Program-made: the position numbers and the translations under genes
In this document: piece after piece, positions 51,507 to 62,582 of the stretch
How the letters are laid out: every line of letters begins with the position of its first letter
Numbering within the stretch: the first letter of the stretch is position 1
Notes under the pieces: model-generated
The model's database searches: none
What the model saw: only the letters and a program-made list of their open reading frames with translations
Told to the model about the DNA's origin: nothing
Origin: an uncultured Lachnospiraceae bacterium
Lineage (GTDB): Bacteria > Bacillota > Clostridia > Lachnospirales > Lachnospiraceae
Length of the DNA: 64,000 nucleotides
Direction of reading: 5' to 3'
Assembly (NCBI GenBank): GCA_947652735.1
Contig: CANTEG010000002.1
Location: forward strand, 62,001 to 126,000

Positions 51507-52559
51507 TTATAACAACTCCAGCATGGTATTTACCAGTAAATCATTTTGTGACGGCTTCATAAAGCAGAAGCGTACATATTTGTCGCTAAGCCCGTGGAAG
51601 TTCTCACAATTTCTGATAACGATACCCTTTAATTTACAGTGTTCTGCAAGCTGGGATGCGGTAACATCCTCCTTTAGGATTTTAATGAGCATAAAGTTTG
51701 CAAACGGTTTAAACAGCTTTACGTTTTTGCTTGTTGCCATGGCGGAGTAAATTAGATTACGCTCGGTATATATTTGAGAGCGGGACTGGTCAATGTAGCC
51801 CTTATCATTAAAAAGCTCCGTGCAGGCAGCGGCAGTCAAAGTAGAAATGCTGTTTGGTGTTGCAATTTTTTCAGCGAGCAACAGGAGTTCCTCGTCTGAA
51901 ACGATGGAGTAACACAGACGAAGTCCCGGGACAGCAAAAAACTTTGAAATACTTCTGATGACTGCTATGTTGGTAAAGTCATTTACAAGAGGAATACTGG
52001 TAAGCTCCTCATATTTTTCAGTGAATTCTATGTACATTTCATCTATAATAAGGAATATTTCTAAGGCTTTGCATGCCTCGGCGAGTGTTTCCATATCCTC
52101 GCGGCTGATAATCTGTGATGTCGGGTTGTTTGGATTGCCAAGAATAATCATATCGTAGGAGGAGTCTAGTGTTTTAATAAAGTCAATGACATTTAGTCTG
52201 TAGTCATCCTCCTCAGACAGCTCATAATAGCAAACCTCGCATCCATACATGGAAAGTGCCGTCTCGTGGTCTATTGGTGACGGTGCAGGGAGCAGTGCCT
52301 TTTTAGGGGCAATCAGAGCCGCATAAAGTCTTAGCATGTCGGATGAACCACTTCCTAAAATTAAATTTTTATCACTGCATCCTGTGTATTGTGCGATTGA
52401 TTTTTTTAAATTACCGTAGTAATCACCCGGATATCTTATTATGGAATTGATATTTTCTGAAAGGGCTTTCTTTACTAAATCGGGAATTCCCATAGGATTA
52501 AGGTTAGAATTGTAAAGTACGGTGTCATATTGTTCCAGTCTGAGTGGTGTTTTTGCCAT
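51507..52559 (-). CDS. PLP-dependent aminotransferase, HisC/CobD-like
   Basis: 350 residues from the ATG at 52559, which has AGGAGG nine bases upstream; the frame is open to 52613, but that part lacks a ribosome site. Class I/II fold motifs are LGSGSSDMLRLYAA, ILGNPNNPTSQII, FLIIDEMYIEF and SISKFFAVPGLRLCY with the PLP lysine at Lys206. The protein resembles histidinol-phosphate aminotransferase and L-threonine-O-3-phosphate decarboxylase (CobD). No his or cob gene is near, so the substrate is open. It may be co-transcribed with the AraC gene, 43 bases downstream. Confidence 0.85.
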   Translation of the reverse strand: MAKTPLRLEQYDTVLYNSNLNPMGIPDLVKKALSENINSIIRYPGDYYGNLKKSIAQYTGCSDKNLILGSGSSDMLRLYAALIAPKKALLPAPSPIDHETALSMYGCEVCYYELSEEDDYRLNVIDFIKTLDSSYDMIILGNPNNPTSQIISREDMETLAEACKALEIFLIIDEMYIEFTEKYEELTSIPLVNDFTNIAVIRSISKFFAVPGLRLCYSIVSDEELLLLAEKIATPNSISTLTAAACTELFNDKGYIDQSRSQIYTERNLIYSAMATSKNVKLFKPFANFMLIKILKEDVTASQLAEHCKLKGIVIRNCENFHGLSDKYVRFCFMKPSQNDLLVNTMLELL

Positions 52560-52790
52560 TTTTATACCTCCTAAAATTATCTTTTTCGATAAATAACCCC
52601 ATATGTCTTTCAAAAATTAAAATCTTTTGTTATAATGTACTCTGTGTTATAATATTTTGATAAAATAGTAGAAAGAAAATCTATTAAATAAAAATATATA
52701 TAATTATAGCATTGTGGCAGATAATATCAAGTCAATTTTGCCGCTGTGCACAATGATAACAGGTTATAGCCAAAAGCTATGGAGGAACAT

Positions 52791-55700
52791 ATGAAGGGTA
52801 TTATTGAACATTACGCAAAGGGAGAGTTTACGGTAGACAGACCTGAGGTTGAAATCTCTGAGCAGTTCTTAAAATTGAACATTGAATCAGGAACTACATA
52901 TACGGGCAGCTTCAGGGTTACCAGTCCAAACGACCATGTCATAAAGGCAATGGTGTATGACAGCAGGTACATGATTCGGTTCGACGAGCACACATATATC
53001 AACAGGCGTTTTGATGTGACATATACATTTGATGCTACGTGTCTCGAGGCAGGAAAAAATTATAAGGGGCACATAAGCATAATATCAGACGGCGGGGAAT
53101 TTAAGATTCCGTATGACATAGATATTACAACACCATATGTTAAGTATGAGGATCAGAAAATAGATGACCTTTTCAAATTTGCAACGCTGGCGGAGAGCAA
53201 CTGGTCAGAGGCTGTAAAGGTTTTCGTGCGTGAAGATTTTAAGAGAACCTTTATTAATAAGGACCCTCTTATCAAGCAGATTTATGCAAGTCTCCTGGAA
53301 AGCCAGTCGGTCAATCAGGCATTGGAGGAGTTCCTTGTTTATGTTCATAAGAAAAGAGCACTTACCCTTTCGGTATCAAAGGCGAAGATAAGCGTGGAAA
53401 TGCCATCCGAGCTTTCAAAGATATCAATCAATATAAGCAAAAATACATGGGGATATACCAATTCCCGTGTTAAATCCATGGACGATTTTATTATACCTGC
53501 AAAGAAGACCATAACAAGCAGTGATTTTTGCGGCAACCTGTTCTCCCTTGATGTTCTGATATCTCCTGAAAATGTTCCTGATGGAACAAGCACGGGAAGA
53601 CTGCTGATAGAAAATATTTATCAGACAATTGAAGTTGAAATCAATCTGTCAAGACCTCAGTCAAAAACACACATTTCACCAAGGTCGGCAAATAAAAACC
53701 ATATGATAAAGAGCAATAAATCAAAACTGGTCAATGCATATCTGGATTATCGTATGGATCGGATTGAGCTTAAGGAATACGTTGCGTCTTCTCTTATGGC
53801 ATTTGGCAATCTTGCAAGGTATGTTCCTGAGGAGGGACTTTATAGAATGGGCACCATGCATATGAATATTATGCAGGGTGAGCTTGAGAAAGTGGAACAG
53901 GAATTTCTCCGAATAGAGGCTGACGTGGATAACACTGTCATGGGTGACATGGAGGAGTGCTATTACGCATACCTGAAAGCTTTGGTTCAAAAGAATTCTA
54001 CTACGATAGAGAGTGCAAGAACCAAAATAAAAAGATATTATAAAACAAAAGAAGATAAGATGTTTTATTTTTGGCTGCTTCTTTTTATAGATGAGGCATA
54101 TGCCCAGGATCAGGCAGCACTTTACAAGGAAATCAAAACCTTATATGACAACAACTACAACAGTCCTATTATGTATCTTGAGTTTTGCGAGATGTTAAAC
54201 AATAACCCGCTTCTCCTCAAGAAGATTACGGGGCTTGAGATTACTGCAATCAGATGGGGACTCCGCCACAAGTTTGTTTCGGATGAAGTGATAGATGAGT
54301 TTATCAGACTTGCAGGCTCGTTCAAGAATTTTGATACCCAGATATTTGGTATCATGGAAGCCATATATGATAAGAACAAGAGCATTGAAGTTTTAAAGAG
54401 TATATGCTCCATGCTGATAGGTGCAAATAAGCTGGATAACAAGTATCACAGATTTTACTTTGATGCGGTGGAAAATTCGCTTAAATTTATAGGACTCAAT
54501 GAGTGCTTTGTAAAGAGTATGAATTTTTCAAGATATGACGTTATTCCTACATCGGTACTTATGTACCTCAATTACAAAAATACGCTTTCAGAGACAGAGC
54601 TTGCATACCTGTATGCAAATGTAATATATAACAAGTCACAGCACATGAAAGTTTACCATGAGTATTGTACTACAATGGAGGACTTCATGGAGAATATGAT
54701 TATAAAGGGAGAAGTCAGTGATGACCTTACGGTTATTTACGATGAGTTCCTTGAGCCTGAGTCAGTCAGCCCGCTTTACGCAGGTAAGCTTGTAAATATT
54801 ATATTCAGAAGAAAGCTTGTATGCTTTAACAAGGGCGTAAGGGCTGTTATTGTAACACACCGTGAGATAGAGGAAGTTCAGAGAGTACCTATCGTGAACG
54901 GGGAGGCATATGTTGAAATATTATCCAACACAGCTTCCATTATATTTGAGGACAGTGAGGGTAACAGATATGCAGGTTCCATTCCGTACCGGTTGGAACG
55001 TATTGTTGATGAGAAAGCATATCTTCCTATATGCTGTGAATACAGTCCGAGGGACTACAGGGTTCTTTTGTACAATTACGAAAAGCTCGGGGACTTCACA
55101 TACAAGAAGGCGATTGAGGTAAATGCGGCAAGAGATATTGTAAATTGTGACCGTATATCGTACGACTATAAGCAGCAGGCATATTTAAACATCATAGAAT
55201 ACTACCACGAAAACCTTGATGCCGATGTGCTTACAAAGTACCTTGGAAAGCTGGATATTGATTATCTTAATCACGCAAACGCAAGAACACTTATTGCGTA
55301 CATGGTAGACATGAATCTGTTTGACAAGGCATTTCAGGCAGTGAAGCTTTACGGCTTTGACGAGATAGACTCAGAGGAGCTTTATCAGCTTGCCGATTAT
55401 GGTGTTGAGGACTCAAACGGATTTGTCAATGAGGATTTGCTTGCCATATGCGTCCATCTTTATAAAATGGGTAAGGTAAATGAACGTATACTTACCTATG
55501 TGATGAACAATTTCAAGGGTGATTTGGACGAGCTTGCAGCACTGTTTAAGACTGCAAGAAACAGAATTCGCGATGTGTCATTTTTGGCGGAAAATACATT
55601 GGCACAGATGATGTTTGCCATGGGAAATGTAGAATATATATATGATATCTTTACCGCATATTACGGAGGAAGAAGCAGGGGACTTGTAGTAAAGGCATTC

Positions 55701-56357
55701 CTCCGATATGCCGCATACAATTACCTCATAAAGGATGTGCAGACGCCAACTGGTATATTTGACTGTCTTTATTCTGAAATTATGAAGGGGAACATAGATG
55801 ATGAAATATCAACAATGGCTCTTTTGATGCAGTTTGGCAAGATGGAAAGGTACACAGAAGAACAGAAAGCATGGATATCAGATTCGGTAGGCAAGTTTAT
55901 GGATGCAGGAAAGCTTTTACCGTTCTATAAGAGCTTTAAGACATTTATTAAGCTTCCGCAGGATGTGTTCCTTAAGACATATCTGATTTATAAGAGTGAC
56001 CCGTCAAAACAGGTAATGGTTAAGTATGCGTTTGACACCGGCTCAAGGCAAAATCTGACCTACAAAACGGAGAGGCTGGATGAGATGGTGCCGGGGCTTT
56101 ACGTGAAAGAGTTTGTTGTGTTCCACGGTGAGAGACTTGTCTACAATGTGGATGATGACGTGGACGGAAGTGCCTATGTGGTTGAGAGTGAAGTGCTTAA
56201 AACAAAGGCATTTAACCGTAAGGATAGAAGTAGGTTTGAGATTATTAACAGCATGCTTGTTAATCAGGAGATGCGTGAGGATAATGAGCTTCTTGAGGCA
56301 TTGGATGTATACCTGAATACAGTTCACTTATTTGAAGAAAATCTCAACATTTTATAA
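52791..56357 (+). CDS. Large DUF5717-like protein, first gene of the Hsp70-like operon
   Basis: 1188 residues from the ATG at 52791 (GGAGGA at 52781-52786). I believe it belongs to DUF5717, an uncharacterised family of Lachnospiraceae. Predicted layout: two Ig-like beta domains (about 10-115 and 195-290), a long helical, TPR-like region (about 320-650), a beta domain (about 655-740), more helical repeats (about 760-1060) and a final beta segment (about 1070-1130). No signal peptide or membrane helix is seen, so it is cytoplasmic or peripheral. It precedes an Hsp70/actin-like ATPase by 9 bases. It may act as scaffold or substrate adaptor (inference). Confidence 0.8.
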   Translation: MKGIIEHYAKGEFTVDRPEVEISEQFLKLNIESGTTYTGSFRVTSPNDHVIKAMVYDSRYMIRFDEHTYINRRFDVTYTFDATCLEAGKNYKGHISIISDGGEFKIPYDIDITTPYVKYEDQKIDDLFKFATLAESNWSEAVKVFVREDFKRTFINKDPLIKQIYASLLESQSVNQALEEFLVYVHKKRALTLSVSKAKISVEMPSELSKISINISKNTWGYTNSRVKSMDDFIIPAKKTITSSDFCGNLFSLDVLISPENVPDGTSTGRLLIENIYQTIEVEINLSRPQSKTHISPRSANKNHMIKSNKSKLVNAYLDYRMDRIELKEYVASSLMAFGNLARYVPEEGLYRMGTMHMNIMQGELEKVEQEFLRIEADVDNTVMGDMEECYYAYLKALVQKNSTTIESARTKIKRYYKTKEDKMFYFWLLLFIDEAYAQDQAALYKEIKTLYDNNYNSPIMYLEFCEMLNNNPLLLKKITGLEITAIRWGLRHKFVSDEVIDEFIRLAGSFKNFDTQIFGIMEAIYDKNKSIEVLKSICSMLIGANKLDNKYHRFYFDAVENSLKFIGLNECFVKSMNFSRYDVIPTSVLMYLNYKNTLSETELAYLYANVIYNKSQHMKVYHEYCTTMEDFMENMIIKGEVSDDLTVIYDEFLEPESVSPLYAGKLVNIIFRRKLVCFNKGVRAVIVTHREIEEVQRVPIVNGEAYVEILSNTASIIFEDSEGNRYAGSIPYRLERIVDEKAYLPICCEYSPRDYRVLLYNYEKLGDFTYKKAIEVNAARDIVNCDRISYDYKQQAYLNIIEYYHENLDADVLTKYLGKLDIDYLNHANARTLIAYMVDMNLFDKAFQAVKLYGFDEIDSEELYQLADYGVEDSNGFVNEDLLAICVHLYKMGKVNERILTYVMNNFKGDLDELAALFKTARNRIRDVSFLAENTLAQMMFAMGNVEYIYDIFTAYYGGRSRGLVVKAFLRYAAYNYLIKDVQTPTGIFDCLYSEIMKGNIDDEISTMALLMQFGKMERYTEEQKAWISDSVGKFMDAGKLLPFYKSFKTFIKLPQDVFLKTYLIYKSDPSKQVMVKYAFDTGSRQNLTYKTERLDEMVPGLYVKEFVVFHGERLVYNVDDDVDGSAYVVESEVLKTKAFNRKDRSRFEIINSMLVNQEMREDNELLEALDVYLNTVHLFEENLNIL

Positions 56358-56366
56358 GGAGGCAAT

Positions 56367-57620
56367 ATGGCAGAGGCATATTACATAGGAATGGATTTGT
56401 GTTCGGACTCAACACAGATAAGTTTTTATAACGACATAAAGCGTGAGCCGGAGACTGTGAACCAATTAAATAATAAAGAGACATATATGATGCCAAACAT
56501 CTTGTTCTTCAGCAGGGATACAGGTGACTGGTATGTTGGCTCTGAGGCATCTGAAGCCAGATTTAAGGAGGATGGTATTGTCCTTGATGAGCTTTATAAA
56601 AATGCCACAAGCGAAGCAATTGTTGATGTGGACGGTATGAGCTACAGCTACAGACAATTGTTTCTGATGATGCTTAAAATGCATATTGACTCGTTCTTGT
56701 ACAGGTATGAGGGGGCAACAGTAAAAAAGCTTGTTGTCACACTCCCTGAGTACAACAAGAGCCTGTTCAAGGTGGTTACCGGACTTTACAGGGAGATTAA
56801 TATACCTGAGGACTGTATTAATATTACAAGCCATTTGGACAGCGGACTTTACTATATCTTTAACCAGAGCAGTGACCTTTGGACAAACAGCGTAGGTCTG
56901 TTTGATTACAATACAGACGGACTTCATTATTACAGGATAGATATATCAAGAAGTAAGGAGCCGAATCTGATTAGTGTGACACACATGGATTACAGCAAGG
57001 ACTTTAACATGGCACTTTTTGCGGGAGACAACATTCTGATGGATGCATCCTTTGCAAAGATAGCCGAGGCGGAAATGAAAAAAACCTACATATCTTCCGT
57101 ATTTTTAACAGGTTTGGGATTTTCCGAAAAGTGGATGAATAAGTCCAGAAATATTCTATGTCAGGGCAGGAGAGTTTTTGCGGGACAGAACATTTACACA
57201 AAGGGAGCCTGCTATAAAGCAGTAGGCGGCGAGTACGAGGAATTTTATCAGAAGTTTTTTGTTGAGACGAAAGAAAATGTCATTTTTGATATTGGAATAT
57301 CCAGCGGCGACGAGGAGGACAAGTTTATTCCGATAGCGTTAGGCGGAAGACAATGGTACAACATAAAAGGTAAAATCAATATTATACTGGATGACACGGA
57401 CACAATTACACTTGTGTACAGAAGCAGAAGAACGGAACAGGAAATCAGGGAGGTTGTAAAGCTTCACGGAATTCCGAAAAGACCGAATAAAACCTCTAAG
57501 TTTTCCATTGAGGTGGAGTTTGAAAATCCGCACAGAGGAGCAGTAGTTATAAAGGATGTTGGCTTTGGCAAGCTTTTCCCAACGACCAACAAGGTTTATC
57601 GTAAGGAGTTTGAGGTATAA
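56367..57620 (+). CDS. Hsp70/actin-superfamily ATPase-like protein (DUF5716-like)
   Basis: 417 residues; ATG after AAGGAGG. The order of motifs follows the Hsp70/actin fold: phosphate-1 YYIGMDLCSDSTQISFY (residues 5-21), connect-1-like LVVTLPEYNKSLFKVV, phosphate-2-like VGLFDYNTDGLHYYRID, the adenosine loop VFLTGLGFSEKW and connect-2-like IYTKGACYKAVGG. The last 115 residues are beta-rich (IDIGISSGD, ALGGRQWYN, KLHGIPKRPNKTSKFSIEVEF) and resemble an Hsp70 substrate-binding beta domain. Several motif glycines are replaced (LGTTNS to LCSDST, GGGT to YNTD), so ATPase activity may be altered. The stop overlaps the next start (TAATG). Confidence 0.8.
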   Translation: MAEAYYIGMDLCSDSTQISFYNDIKREPETVNQLNNKETYMMPNILFFSRDTGDWYVGSEASEARFKEDGIVLDELYKNATSEAIVDVDGMSYSYRQLFLMMLKMHIDSFLYRYEGATVKKLVVTLPEYNKSLFKVVTGLYREINIPEDCINITSHLDSGLYYIFNQSSDLWTNSVGLFDYNTDGLHYYRIDISRSKEPNLISVTHMDYSKDFNMALFAGDNILMDASFAKIAEAEMKKTYISSVFLTGLGFSEKWMNKSRNILCQGRRVFAGQNIYTKGACYKAVGGEYEEFYQKFFVETKENVIFDIGISSGDEEDKFIPIALGGRQWYNIKGKINIILDDTDTITLVYRSRRTEQEIREVVKLHGIPKRPNKTSKFSIEVEFENPHRGAVVIKDVGFGKLFPTTNKVYRKEFEV

Positions 57621-58453
57621 TGTCAAAAATTATATTATGTACAACAAAAGAAGCGTCCAATCCGTTTATTTTCCTTAACACAAAGGTTGAGATAAACAAT
57701 TATGAGGAACTTTGCTTTTATATATACAATAACACTGTTCTTATAAGTAAGTCCTCGCTTTCTGACAAGCTTTTTGATTGGATTAGGGATGAGCTTGATA
57801 TGCCTGCACTGGCAGCTAAATTAAGTGCACTTTCCAATAAGACGTCATTCGCACAGGATTTGCTTGTGGAAATATTAAACGAGGGTGATTACTACGAGCC
57901 TGAGGAGATTAAAATATATGTAGAAGCATGCCAGAAATACAGAAAGCTGAACAAATGCCAGAGGAAGAAGCTTAAGGCTGACGCGTACCTTGGATATAGG
58001 AGATATATAAAGGCAGCATCCATATATGACGATATCATTGAAAATCCCGAGGATATACCTGACAGGGAGTTCCTTGGAAACGTGTACCACAACAGGGCTG
58101 TTGCGGCAGCAAACAATCTGGACACGGAGGATGCAAAAAAATATTTCTTAAAGGCATATGAGTTAAACGATAATGAGGAATCCTTAAGGGGATATCTCAT
58201 TGTATTTGCAGCAGGAAACGATTCCACAAATATAAGGCAGGAAATGCGCAAGTATGATTTGGATGATGACGCTTTTGAAAGTCTGATGCTTGAGATTGGT
58301 GACTCAAATGAGGATGTGCGGGAAATGACGATTTTCTCTATGCTTCAAAGAGCGGTTTACAACAGGATGAATAAGGATATGATAGATTATGACAAGAGAA
58401 TGGATATTATTCTCGGTCAGCTAAAGGACGGTTTTAGGGAGCAGGCAATTTAA
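57620..58453 (+). CDS. TPR-like protein of the Hsp70-like operon
   Basis: 277 residues, helical. TPR-like units are seen at about 120-140 (ADAYLGYRRYIKAASIYDDII) and 150-180 (GNVYHNRAVAAANNLDTEDAKKYFLKAYEL). The N-terminal 60 residues may form a small beta-alpha domain. The C-terminal region (210-277) is charged. TPR proteins often work as co-chaperones, which fits its place between an Hsp70-like ATPase and a membrane protein (inference). One-base overlaps (TAATG) with both neighbours show tight translational coupling. Confidence 0.78.
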   Translation: MSKIILCTTKEASNPFIFLNTKVEINNYEELCFYIYNNTVLISKSSLSDKLFDWIRDELDMPALAAKLSALSNKTSFAQDLLVEILNEGDYYEPEEIKIYVEACQKYRKLNKCQRKKLKADAYLGYRRYIKAASIYDDIIENPEDIPDREFLGNVYHNRAVAAANNLDTEDAKKYFLKAYELNDNEESLRGYLIVFAAGNDSTNIRQEMRKYDLDDDAFESLMLEIGDSNEDVREMTIFSMLQRAVYNRMNKDMIDYDKRMDIILGQLKDGFREQAI

Positions 58454-59841
58454 TGGGTTTGATAGATAAAATCAGGAGTTATCTGAATGAGGAGGAGCCG
58501 GGGGAACCAAGGCTTACTGCTGAGGATGCTGAGGCAAAGAAAAAATTTGCCGCATCCATATCATCAGATTTAGATAAAGAGACTGATGCCAAGCAACAAG
58601 ACAATCAGAAAAGTAATAAGAAGCGCCCGTCGGGTGGTTTATTTTCTGCGTTCAGAAGAAAGAATAAAAACAACCCGCAAGCTTCGTCTGATGATGAAAG
58701 CAAAAAAAGGCGTCCACCGTCAGAGGTGAATCCTGAGCTTTATAACAGCATACAGGAGCAGGGGGCATCTAAGGATGAACGAAAGGCCGCCCAGGATTTT
58801 TGTGAACAGTTAATTGATGTGACTTATCATATGGAAGATATGAAACGGGAGTATAAGCTTGTGACAAGCTATCTGATTGACATACAGAAAATCGAGGAAC
58901 TCCCTGACGATATGGCAAATGAACTGGCGGAAAATGCCAGAAGAATAGAGATGCTGAACGAGGATAAAAGTAAATATATCCAGTCGGAGAAGCTTCTTAC
59001 AATGGACAGGTTCAACACGATGGCATCATTAGAAAAGGATGTGCCAAGTACAATCAAAAAATTGATTGATATGGAAATGCGGGATAATCTCCTGAAAAAC
59101 GACATGAGTTATTTGGAGGGAGAGAAGGAAGACCTTAAGTTTATGCATCAGGAGTATAATGAAAGTATATCAAGAATCCGAAGCATGACTGCTGTTGTGC
59201 TTACACTATTTTTAATTACTGTTGGTTCTATGCTTATTTTTGCGGTCACTACAAAGAAAAGTGTTACCGTGTATTGTCTCGGTATATTTTTTGCAGCAAT
59301 GGTTTTCTTTGCTGGTGCTTATGCGAAATACAAATCGTTGAAAACAGAGATAGCGGAAAATGATGCAAAGCTGAATCGGGCCATCTCGCTTTTAAATAAG
59401 GTTAAGGTCAAGTTTATTAATAACACAAATACACTTGATTATATATATGAGAAGTATGGCGTCAATTCCTCAAACGAATTGGAATACCAGTGGGACCAGT
59501 ACAACACAATGGTTCGTGATGCGTTGAAATACTCACAGGCGAACAATGATTTACGAGTCTACAGCGACGAGCTTATTAGTAAACTGAAAACCTATGGCAT
59601 AGAGGATCCGTTCGTCTGGCCAAAGCAGACAATGGCACTGATTGACAGCCGCGAGATGGTTGAAATTAAGCATGGCCTTAATGTCAGAAGACAAAAAATC
59701 AGGGAACAGCTCGTCACATATGAAAAAATTAAAATAAATGCAGGAACAGCACTTCGTGCTGCCATAGATGCAAACCCAGGCCTGGCGACTTATATAAATG
59801 ATTTGCTTGCATCCTATAACATAAAGCTTGGGGAAGAATAA
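58453..59841 (+). CDS. Two-TM coiled-coil membrane protein of the Hsp70-like operon
   Basis: 462 residues. The first ~100 are hydrophilic and low in complexity (Lys/Asp/Gln/Ser-rich, with KRPSGGLFSAFRRKNKNN). Coiled coil is likely at about 120-240. Two membrane helices follow at about 245-267 (TAVVLTLFLITVGSMLIFAV) and 272-291 (VYCLGIFFAAMVFFAGAYA). A second coiled coil and a helical cytoplasmic domain complete the protein. It would anchor the operon's products at the membrane with both ends inside (inference). No named family is recognised. Confidence 0.78.
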   Translation: MGLIDKIRSYLNEEEPGEPRLTAEDAEAKKKFAASISSDLDKETDAKQQDNQKSNKKRPSGGLFSAFRRKNKNNPQASSDDESKKRRPPSEVNPELYNSIQEQGASKDERKAAQDFCEQLIDVTYHMEDMKREYKLVTSYLIDIQKIEELPDDMANELAENARRIEMLNEDKSKYIQSEKLLTMDRFNTMASLEKDVPSTIKKLIDMEMRDNLLKNDMSYLEGEKEDLKFMHQEYNESISRIRSMTAVVLTLFLITVGSMLIFAVTTKKSVTVYCLGIFFAAMVFFAGAYAKYKSLKTEIAENDAKLNRAISLLNKVKVKFINNTNTLDYIYEKYGVNSSNELEYQWDQYNTMVRDALKYSQANNDLRVYSDELISKLKTYGIEDPFVWPKQTMALIDSREMVEIKHGLNVRRQKIREQLVTYEKIKINAGTALRAAIDANPGLATYINDLLASYNIKLGEE

Positions 59842-59885
59842 GACAAATTACGTATGAATGAAATATATTGGAGGATATGAACATC

Positions 59886-62582
59886 ATGGCTAAGGAACTT
59901 GAAAAAAATTATAACCCATCTGAGATTGAGGGAAGATTGTATGATAAGTGGGTGAACAAAAAATATTTTCACGCAGAGGTTGACAGGAGTAAAAAGCCAT
60001 TTACGATTGTTATGCCACCGCCAAATATAACAGGACAGCTCCATATGGGACATGCCCTTGATAATACGATGCAGGATATACTTATTAGATTTAAGCGTAT
60101 GCAGGGCTACAATGCACTTTGGCAGCCGGGCACGGACCATGCGGCAATTGCCACAGAGGTTAAGCTGATTGAGAGCTTAAGGGAAAAAGGAATCGAAAAA
60201 GAAGATTTAGGACGTGAAGGCTTTTTAGAGAAGGCATGGGAATGGAAAGCTGAGTACGGTGGACGTATTATCAACCAGCTTAAGAGGATGGGTTCTTCGG
60301 CTGATTGGGACAGAGAACGTTTTACTATGGATGATGGCAATAATAAGGCAGTTACTGAGGTTTTCTGCAAACTCTATGACAAGGGCTATATATACAAAGG
60401 GTCACGTATCGTTAACTGGTGTCCTGTATGCCAGACATCTATTTCTGATGCAGAGGTTATCCATGAGGAGCAGCAGGGATTTTTTTGGCACATAAACTAT
60501 CCTGTTGCAGGTGAGGAAGGAAGATTTGTTGAGATTGCAACTACAAGACCTGAGACACTCCTTGGAGATACTGCGGTAGCTGTAAACCCTGAGGATGACA
60601 GATATAAGAATCTTATAGGTAAAACAGTTATTTTACCTCTTGTAAATAAGGAAATTCCTGTGGTTGCAGACTCTTATGTTGACATGGAATTTGGAACGGG
60701 TGTTGTTAAAATTACGCCTGCCCATGACCCGAATGACTTTGAGGTAGGAAAGAGACACAACCTTGAGGAGATTAATATATTAAATGACGATGCTACCATA
60801 AATTCTCTCGGCGGAAAGTATGCAGGTATGGACCGGTATGAGGCGAGAAAGGCTATGGTGGAGGATCTTGATAAGCTGGGGCTTTTGGTTAAGGTTGAGC
60901 CACACACACATATGGTTGGAACACATGACAGATGTAAAACGGTAGTTGAGCCACTTGTTAAGCCACAGTGGTTTGTTAAGATGTCCGAGATGGCGAAGCC
61001 TGCAAAGGAAGCTGTCGTAAACGGAACACTTAAGCTGATACCTGAAAGAATGGACAAGACATATTACAACTGGCTGGACAATATCAGGGATTGGTGTATA
61101 TCGAGACAGCTTTGGTGGGGACACAGAATACCTGCCTACTATTGTCAGGATTGTGGGGAGGTTATCGTTTCAAAGGAAAAGCCATGTAGCTGTCCGAAAT
61201 GTAACGGTACTGATTTAAAGCAGGATGAGGATACCCTTGACACATGGTTCTCATCAGCACTTTGGCCGTTTTCAACTCTGGGATGGCCTGAAGAAACAGA
61301 GGAGATGGACTATTTCTTCCCTACAGACGTGCTTGTAACGGGATATGATATTATTTTCTTCTGGGTAATCAGAATGGTATTTTCCGCTATTGAGCAGACG
61401 GGACAGCTTCCGTTTTCTACGGTACTGTTTCACGGTCTGGTAAGGGACGACAAGGGAAGAAAGATGAGCAAGTCCCTCGGAAATGGTATTGACCCGCTTG
61501 AGGTCATCGATAAATACGGAGCTGATGCCTTAAGATTTACGCTTGTTACGGGAAATGCACCGGGAAATGACATGCGTTTTTACTGGGAGAGAGTTGAGGC
61601 AAGCAGAAACTTCGCCAATAAAATATGGAACGCATCAAGATTTATTCTTATGAATATTGAGAAAGCGGATATCGGTGAGGTTGCACTTTCTGACCTTACA
61701 ATTGCAGACCGTTGGATACTTTCCAAAATGAATGACCTGATTGTTGAGGTTACTGAAAATATGGAGAAGTATGAGTTGGGAATTGCAGTTTCCAAGCTTT
61801 ACGATTTCCTTTGGGAGGAATTCTGTGACTGGTATATCGAGATGGTGAAACCGAGACTTTGGAACGACGAGGACGAGACAAAGGCGGCTGCACTTTGGAC
61901 ACTGAAGACGGTTCTTACAAACGGACTTAAGCTTTTGCATCCATATATGCCGTTTGTTACGGAGGAAATATTTGTCACCTTAAATGAGGCAGCAAATGCA
62001 AAACCGGACAACAAGGTTTACAATGGAGGAATGGCTGATATCGCTGAGTCCATTATGATTTCCGCATGGCCTGTTTATGATGAAGCATACAGTTTCAAGG
62101 CGGACGAGGAGGCTGTGGACAAGCTTAAAGAAGCCGTAAGAGGTATCAGAAATATAAGAAGTGAAATGAATGTTGCACCAAGCAAAAAGGCAACAGTGTA
62201 TGTTGTTTCGACAAAGGACGAAATAAGAAATATTTTTGCGGCGAGTAAGACATTTTTCGCTACGCTTGGATATGCAAGTGATGTTATGATACAGGAAGAT
62301 AAAACAGGAATCGCTGACGATGCAGTTTCGGTTGTCATCCATGATGCGGTTATTTATATGCCGTTTGCAGAGCTTGTGGATATTGCTAAGGAGCTTGAGC
62401 GTCTGAACAAGGAAAAGGACAGACTGATGGGAGAGATAAAGCGGGCATCAGGCATGCTGTCAAACCCTAAGTTTGTGGATAAGGCGCCTGCGGCTAAGGT
62501 TGAGGAAGAAAAGGCAAAGCTTAAGAAATATACAGAAACCTTGGAGCAGGTAGAGGAGAGACTTTCACAGTTGGGAGCATAA
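59886..62582 (+). CDS. valS: Valyl-tRNA synthetase
   Basis: 898 residues from the ATG at 59886 ([15 protein letters not shown]); ATG 59877 and TTG 59868 are alternatives close to GGAGG (59870-59874). Class I signatures are HMGH (53-56) and KMSKS (526-530). The editing domain includes [15 protein letters not shown] and [16 protein letters not shown] zinc-like cluster CQDC...CSCPKC is at about 421-436. The C-terminal coiled-coil arm ([19 protein letters not shown]) is complete. It lies 44 bases after the membrane gene, and there is no room for a T-box leader. Confidence 0.96.

Follow-up and report, generated by a model that had tools for sequence, protein, structure and literature searches.

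We examined an operon of four genes in a 64,000-nucleotide stretch of DNA, hereafter the window (assembly GCA_947652735.1, contig CANTEG010000002.1, positions 62,001 to 126,000), from an uncultured Lachnospiraceae bacterium; "family" below means Lachnospiraceae and "order" Lachnospirales. Its second gene encodes a 417-residue protein of the Pfam family DUF5716 that appears to be a degenerate Hsp70. The four open reading frames (ORFs) and their junctions are as an earlier note on this DNA had described them, all on the forward strand, with 9 base pairs (bp) between genes 1 and 2 and a 1-bp overlap (TAATG) between genes 2 and 3 and again between genes 3 and 4 (Table 1). Position 52791 is the better start of gene 1, because a GGAGGA box lies immediately 5′ of it and Met1 was invariant in a 30-row alignment begun there. 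Genes 1 and 2 are not chance ORFs, since their Pfam scores far exceed the curated cut-offs (314 bits against 34.7 for DUF5716_C, 941 against 25 for DUF5717_N, and 227 against 25 for DUF5717). By score they are members of DUF5717 (PF18984 and PF18983) and DUF5716 (PF18980), families that have only been catalogued.

Table 1. The four-gene operon and its flanking genes, in window coordinates.
Feature	Position	Strand	Product and evidence
DUF5717 protein gene (gene 1)	52791..56357 (ORF from 52779)	+	1188 residues; Pfam PF18984 (8e-283) and PF18983 (6e-67)
DUF5716 protein gene (gene 2)	56367..57620	+	417 residues; PF18980 (9e-94); hhalign, motif counts, deletion of subdomain IIB
TPR-like protein gene (gene 3)	57620..58453	+	277 residues; sub-threshold TPR_2 match (0.0038)
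Coiled-coil-like protein gene with two transmembrane segments (gene 4)	58453..59841	+	462 residues; hydropathy
valS, flanking housekeeping gene	59868..62582	+	Pfam
Divergent aminotransferase-like gene	51507..52613	-	Named by eye; not claimed as part of the machine

Relatives of the 417-residue protein were found in a larger operon in several other families of the order, where the gene order was DUF5717, H1, a GrpE fusion, H2, H3, H4 and TPR (H1 to H4 being its four Hsp70s), followed in L104, L108 and L117 by the coiled coil and valS. The loci compared comprised 46 fetched with the 417-residue protein, 20 diverged Lachnospiraceae loci, and 18 from 16 of 39 genomes of other families. The full run, with all gaps below 300 bp, was present in 9 of these 18 (L103, L104, L106-L110, L116 and L117), representing six families; L109 is nearly a copy of L106, and in L104 both H4 and TPR are divided between two ORFs. 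L102 and L105 kept the order with inserted ORFs, and of the other seven some were incomplete or dispersed, some lay at contig ends, and L118 was too short for layout. H1, H3 and H4 matched HSP70 in Pfam (5e-76, 7e-63 and 5e-96), H4 carrying a vWA domain as well (2e-10; L106 5495-7573 and orthologs), and the GrpE-fusion protein consists of a long helical region and a C-terminal GrpE domain (3e-13). Pfam scans of 10 proteins from the larger operon found neither a J domain nor a GTPase. When H4 was searched in 196 genomes of the class, few of them from the order, 182 had a match at 1e-60; none of the 30 best matches extended beyond residue 516 of the 692, and all lay in frames of 600-641 residues, as ordinary DnaK would. 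The larger operon itself seems undescribed.

As a single sequence the DUF5716 protein gave no Hsp70 match in Pfam (E-values up to 1) and none in the PDB; the DUF5716 profile gave one weak DnaK match in the PDB (E 0.22), and DUF5717 one match there at 0.18. Profiles were compared with hhalign, whose E-values here are those of single pairwise comparisons. DUF5716 aligned with the H2 group over 408 columns (residues 4-416, E 9.2e-40), and its residues 3-193 aligned with a profile built from intact Hsp70s (probability 96.5, E 8.5e-10). The H2 protein L106_8 forms a bridge, as it matched DUF5716_C (1.5e-26), HSP70 (1.4e-17) and DnaK structures (best 4.9e-11). In an unrooted tree of 69 rows, which took in 14 of the 38 DUF5716 rows, all 14 grouped as a single clade (SH-aLRT 98) and H2 of L104 branched nearest to them (support 98); a branch with support of 100 separated the 28 rows of DUF5716 plus H2 from 41 intact Hsp70 rows. 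Relatives stand beside a GrpE-like protein in the larger operons, which points to Hsp70-type ancestry. Descent of DUF5716 from Hsp70 is thus almost certain as far as sequences can tell, and the 417-residue protein is the counterpart of H2, the degenerate member of the larger operon; the profile comparison and the bridging relatives bear out the degenerate Hsp70/actin fold that had been suspected earlier, as a matter of descent.

Catalytic columns were located by alignment to the genome's own DnaK (616 residues) and are named by what we take to be the E. coli DnaK numbering. Lys70 and Thr199 were kept in none of 38 DUF5716 and none of 14 H2 proteins, and Glu171 in 0/38 and 1/14, respectively; each of the three was kept in all 35 H1, H3 and H4 proteins. 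Asp194 was kept in 24/38, 13/14 and 35/35 of the three groups. The P2 motif DxGGGT is not kept in DUF5716 (D in 24, G196 in 1, G197 in 3, and G198 and T in none of 38). The span from P2 to the adenosine motif is 48-66 residues in 38/38 DUF5716 proteins, compared with 122-170 across all other groups, H2 (122-140) included, and the match of DUF5716 to L104_8 breaks at the same place, with 11 residues where L104_8 has 81. The deleted stretch is subdomain IIB, which together with IB we take to be where GrpE grips DnaK. The C-terminal half aligns to its end with H2 relatives, and H3 combines an HSP70 match to residue 514 with a DUF5716_C match at 415-535. DUF5716 probably ends after a region resembling the beta part of the substrate-binding domain (SBD-beta); in the alignment it stops at residue 483 of the own 616-residue DnaK, and the helical lid, within the limits that we assume for it there, is absent. 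The substrate-domain-like C-terminus proposed earlier is consistent with this alignment to relatives having Hsp70 C-termini. Read from these columns, DUF5716 is a predicted pseudo-ATPase, conserved as such without catalytic residues and without subdomain IIB.

The protein is nearly universal in its family, DUF5716_C being found in 244 of 250 Lachnospiraceae genomes (243 of 249 genera). Across the phylum it was found in 4 of 299 genomes, all of them Lachnospiraceae and including the window's own, and across the order in 48 of 96 (9 Lachnospiraceae and 39 of other families; 46 of the 48 over the cut-off). At least two matches occurred in 35 of the 39 other-family genomes, some of them being two stretches of one gene. 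DUF5717_N was found in 10 of 245 genomes of the class, 9 in Lachnospiraceae and one below the cut-off, and neither domain was found in 14 control genomes from outside the phylum. Among the six Lachnospiraceae genomes without DUF5716, three have DUF5717, and in two of these the match begins within 40 bases of the contig end towards which DUF5716 would be expected; the other three (G327, G389 and G522) have neither. DUF5717 was also present in 20 of 21 Lachnospiraceae genomes with weaker or double DUF5716 matches.

The earlier note had taken the genes to belong together, and in scripted layouts DUF5717, DUF5716 and TPR genes were indeed joined in 62 of 66 Lachnospiraceae loci, 39 of them with a recognised gene 4 and 23 without gene 4 adjoining. 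Two of the remaining four lie at a contig edge (L034 and L051); in the other two, L028 and L122, the gene was mis-called as an overlapping antisense ORF, and separate homology searches nonetheless found DUF5716 in both. L028 and L122 look like the same contig taken twice (both 348,584 bases), and the 66 loci were not otherwise de-duplicated.

The operon is under purifying selection. Nonsynonymous divergence (dN) of DUF5716 to four relatives was 0.065-0.105, compared with 0.057-0.096 for ValS (0.065 against 0.057 for L010), and dN/dS was 0.02-0.04 in those operon comparisons (3 of 16) for which synonymous divergence (dS) was estimable, one of these being DUF5716 itself at 0.023. The coiled-coil gene 4 is looser (dN 0.28-0.39).

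The remaining products are proposed to be adaptors and a membrane anchor. The DUF5717 protein, which we propose to be a large adaptor, consists of an N-terminal part of about 290 residues, a long middle region, in which relatives show weak TPR matches, and a C-terminal DUF5717 domain; the N-terminal part is a separate gene in 8 of the 18 loci of other families. An E. ruminantium-like group (L036, L038-L041, L043-L046 and L049) carries an acidic-rich insert of about 90-150 residues after residue 529 of DUF5717, and no two-transmembrane gene was recognised in these loci. The product of gene 3 has an N-terminal domain of about 100 residues followed by a short TPR-like region; its residues 8-185 match the TPR protein L108_7 (E 3e-13), and on this likeness we take it to be a shortened relative of the TPR protein of 380-390 residues in the larger operon. 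Gene 4, whose "coiled coil" label was given by eye, has hydrophobic stretches at residues 239-266 and 271-289 by hydropathy, and two or three such segments were called in each of 45 homologs in the same way; homologs were also matched outside Lachnospiraceae, in three families of Lachnospirales (E 1e-34 to 3e-20). This two-helix membrane hairpin is an optional component. The membrane anchoring that the earlier note envisaged therefore agrees with the hydropathy of gene 4 but does not hold for the system throughout, as gene 4 was not found beside the others in 23 of 62 loci.

Searches for the active partners of the larger operon did not recognise them in Lachnospiraceae. With H3 as query, no ortholog was found in 100 Lachnospiraceae genomes: 92 had a match at 1e-30, the best reaching 183 bits at 31% identity, and the frames resembled DnaK or the second Hsp70 at G000:C14; true H3 pairs reach at least 669 bits against L106_7. 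The GrpE fusion was not recognised in 120 Lachnospiraceae genomes; 25 weak matches of at most 27.7 bits lay in frames of 200-360 residues, and these look like housekeeping GrpE because all 20 that could be compared adjoin a DnaK-like match. The vWA part of H4 revealed no Hsp70-vWA protein in 120 Lachnospiraceae genomes, and one 37-bit match in a frame of 955 residues. H1 was not used as a query of its own in the family, but in the own genome PF00012 matched only DnaK, the 564-residue Hsp70 and two frames of 352 and 334 residues (46-bit). As a separate observation, the second Hsp70 of the window's own genome (L002 1264-2958, contig C14) is intact, has 564 residues, directly follows a TPR-like gene of 420 residues with a 4-bp overlap, and falls in the tree with DnaK and apart from H1, H3 and H4.

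A second reduced form occurs in another family. In G559 (L119 3817-8916), DUF5717, split into two genes, and H2 are followed by glycosyltransferase, YitT and secA genes, and the sole match to the H3 query is DnaK-like. Within the same family H3 was found at 586-1219 bits in G586, G596, G607 (the query's own genome) and G616, and G575 and G626 had only DnaK-like matches and no DUF5716_C. The H2 of G559 retains the IIB stretch (125 residues), so that absence of IIB is special to Lachnospiraceae among the rows examined.

We propose that the window's operon descends, by reduction, from a dedicated multi-Hsp70 chaperone operon and would now serve as an ATP-independent scaffold, a reading to which we give a probability of roughly 60%. 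Its two parts are not equally firm: reduction from the larger operon is very probable, and a scaffold function for DUF5716 stands at about even odds. In the larger form, ATP would be cycled by H1, H3 and H4, whose exchange factor would be the GrpE fusion; DUF5717 and the TPR protein would be adaptors, and H2 would be a non-cycling subunit, with a membrane coiled coil in some loci. Since H2 lacks the hydrolysis residues already in the larger operon, these would have gone first, and most of the remaining nucleotide cleft, together with subdomain IIB, later, in Lachnospiraceae. The active Hsp70s and the GrpE fusion would have been lost there as well, and the pseudo-Hsp70 would have stayed with DUF5717 and the TPR protein. 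DUF5716 would no longer run a nucleotide cycle and would act as a fixed scaffold subunit binding DUF5717, with the TPR protein as a further adaptor and the optional two-transmembrane protein, a hairpin partner in 39 of 62 loci, as anchor. What we infer here beyond the alignments is the scaffold role and the direction of partner loss; loss is the simplest direction because no other Hsp70 row lacks IIB and because G559 stands among genomes with the full set.

Several points weigh against this proposal. Gain of active Hsp70s in the other families is a possible alternative history of the partners. H2 alone did not form one clade, and finer positions in the tree are unsure because of long branches such as H2_L117_4 and DUF5716_L090. 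Some of the old cleft is retained, namely Asp8 of the P1 motif (DUF5716 35/38, H2 14/14, the three intact Hsp70s 35/35), Gly10 of P1 (14/38, 13/14 and 35/35) and the first Gly of the adenosine motif (38/38, 14/14 and 35/35), and some ligand binding there is therefore possible. The GrpE-fusion query was of moderate power (58 bits against its L106 ortholog), and the searches in the family covered H3, the GrpE fusion and the vWA part of H4 but not H1 separately. G559 is a single genome of 96% completeness. The two-transmembrane gene is often missing, so a membrane role would not be general. Finally, the proposal is built on sequence evidence.

The likeness to the Hsp70/DnaK (PF00012) and GrpE (PF01025) system lies in the homologous nucleotide-binding framework and the putative SBD-beta-like C-terminus of DUF5716, and in the larger operon with its three intact-motif Hsp70s and GrpE-domain protein. 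In contrast, DUF5716 is without the catalytic Lys, Glu and Thr, the P2 motif, subdomain IIB and the helical lid, and the window's operon is without a GrpE, J or HSP70 match in Pfam. A study of Myxococcus DnaK paralogs (PMC11019930) describes duplication and specialisation of bacterial Hsp70s; its main text contains none of the terms Lachnospir-, Clostridi-, von Willebrand or degenerate. As the earlier note had supposed, no described function turned up in the open-licence papers searched. Searched by name, these papers held nothing on DUF5717, and DUF5716 appeared only in an unrelated cancer-drug computation; by topic, nothing on a DUF5716/DUF5717 system was found.

Among other explanations, ligand sensing holds up best, though we consider it unlikely: the remodelled cleft of DUF5716 would bind a nucleotide or small ligand and act as a regulatory switch for DUF5717. 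The P1 Asp and adenosine-motif Gly fit this, as do the next G (34/38) and F (37/38) of that motif, and 15 of the 37 columns that are at least 85% identical across 38 Lachnospiraceae DUF5716 members fall in residues 243-283, from the adenosine motif on. However, the P2 motif, Lys, Glu and subdomain IIB, which supply most nucleotide contacts of Hsp70s, are gone.

A biological-conflict system is considerably less probable. Such systems are typically patchy in distribution, by our own criterion, and DUF5716 at 244 of 250 Lachnospiraceae genomes is not. The idea arises from the second GAP1-N2 theme described by Kaur et al. 2020 (PMC7159879), the nearest published parts list that we found to the larger operon; this theme combines an HSP70 and a GrpE with a further HSP70 that lacks the peptide-binding domain and with an FNIII protein fused to either TPR or DnaJ. 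Gene 3 also gave a weak GapS6a match (0.0021, far below the cut-off). Our system differs from that theme in its near-universal presence in a family, in its extra Hsp70-vWA fusion and pseudo-Hsp70, and in having no GTPase or J domain in the proteins scanned, no model named GAP1-N2 being among those searched. PADLOC matched the window's genes only once (gene 3, 0.0044), and defence-model matches of the larger operon fall in Hsp70 and TPR regions. Defence is thus unlikely, given the distribution and the results with defence models.

The ATP-driven membrane chaperone or cytoskeleton-like machine that the earlier note had proposed ranks slightly lower again. It would accord with the Hsp70/actin-fold ancestry and with the two-transmembrane partner gene, but it is not supported, because the catalytic residues and a whole subdomain are absent in every family member checked (38/38); moreover, the operon has no active Hsp70 or GrpE gene by Pfam, and the membrane gene was not found in 23 of 62 loci. 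For a cytoskeleton we found nothing in favour: the 417-residue protein had no MreB or FtsA family match in Pfam up to E 1, and its larger-operon relatives sit with a GrpE-like protein. The ATP-driven cytoskeleton reading was rejected on the missing motifs and subdomain IIB. Least probable, and already disfavoured, is a decaying, dispensable remnant of the larger operon, which would account for the lost catalytic residues, IIB and, if our reading is right, partner genes, but not for dN at the level of ValS, presence in 243 of 249 genera, or the mostly joint presence or absence of DUF5716 and DUF5717.

A role in sporulation was also considered and is unlikely, because DUF5716 is present in all but one (G389) of the 35 genomes, among 100 Lachnospiraceae, in which SpoIVA was not over its cut-off (65 had it over the cut-off). 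Downstream of the operon, a GdpP-like gene is found together with valS. The aminotransferase-like gene adjoins DUF5717 in 43 of the 46 close loci, in 6 of the 20 diverged Lachnospiraceae loci and in 1 of 16 expanded loci (L117, another family), and shared regulation with the operon is possible. No CIRCE heat-shock element was found in the window at up to 3 mismatches to the consensus, and a promoter and terminator scan was uninformative, its counts lying within one standard deviation of shuffles. Neighbouring genes in 8 diverged Lachnospiraceae loci resemble housekeeping or transport genes, judged by eye from first residues, and gave no functional clue.

A pseudo-enzyme usually survives alongside an active relative whose activity it regulates. 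In this case it is apparently the active Hsp70 partners that have vanished, and the inactive member is kept, under strong selection, in almost every genus sampled from Lachnospiraceae, a large family common in animal guts. A wider version of our proposal, which we hold only tentatively, is that three active Hsp70s (one with vWA), a pseudo-Hsp70 and a GrpE fusion on DUF5717 make up an undescribed hetero-assembly, and that it was pared down to DUF5717 and the pseudo-subunit in Lachnospiraceae and, as a separate event, in one further lineage; what is left would work there as a housekeeping scaffold, present almost universally, with no nucleotide cycle. With its four Hsp70s, the Hsp70-vWA fusion and the GrpE fusion, the larger operon may itself be a new chaperone machine that is biochemically testable. 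The reduced system lets one ask what use an Hsp70 fold has in the absence of ATP, and it may open a way to the function of two large families, DUF5716 and DUF5717.

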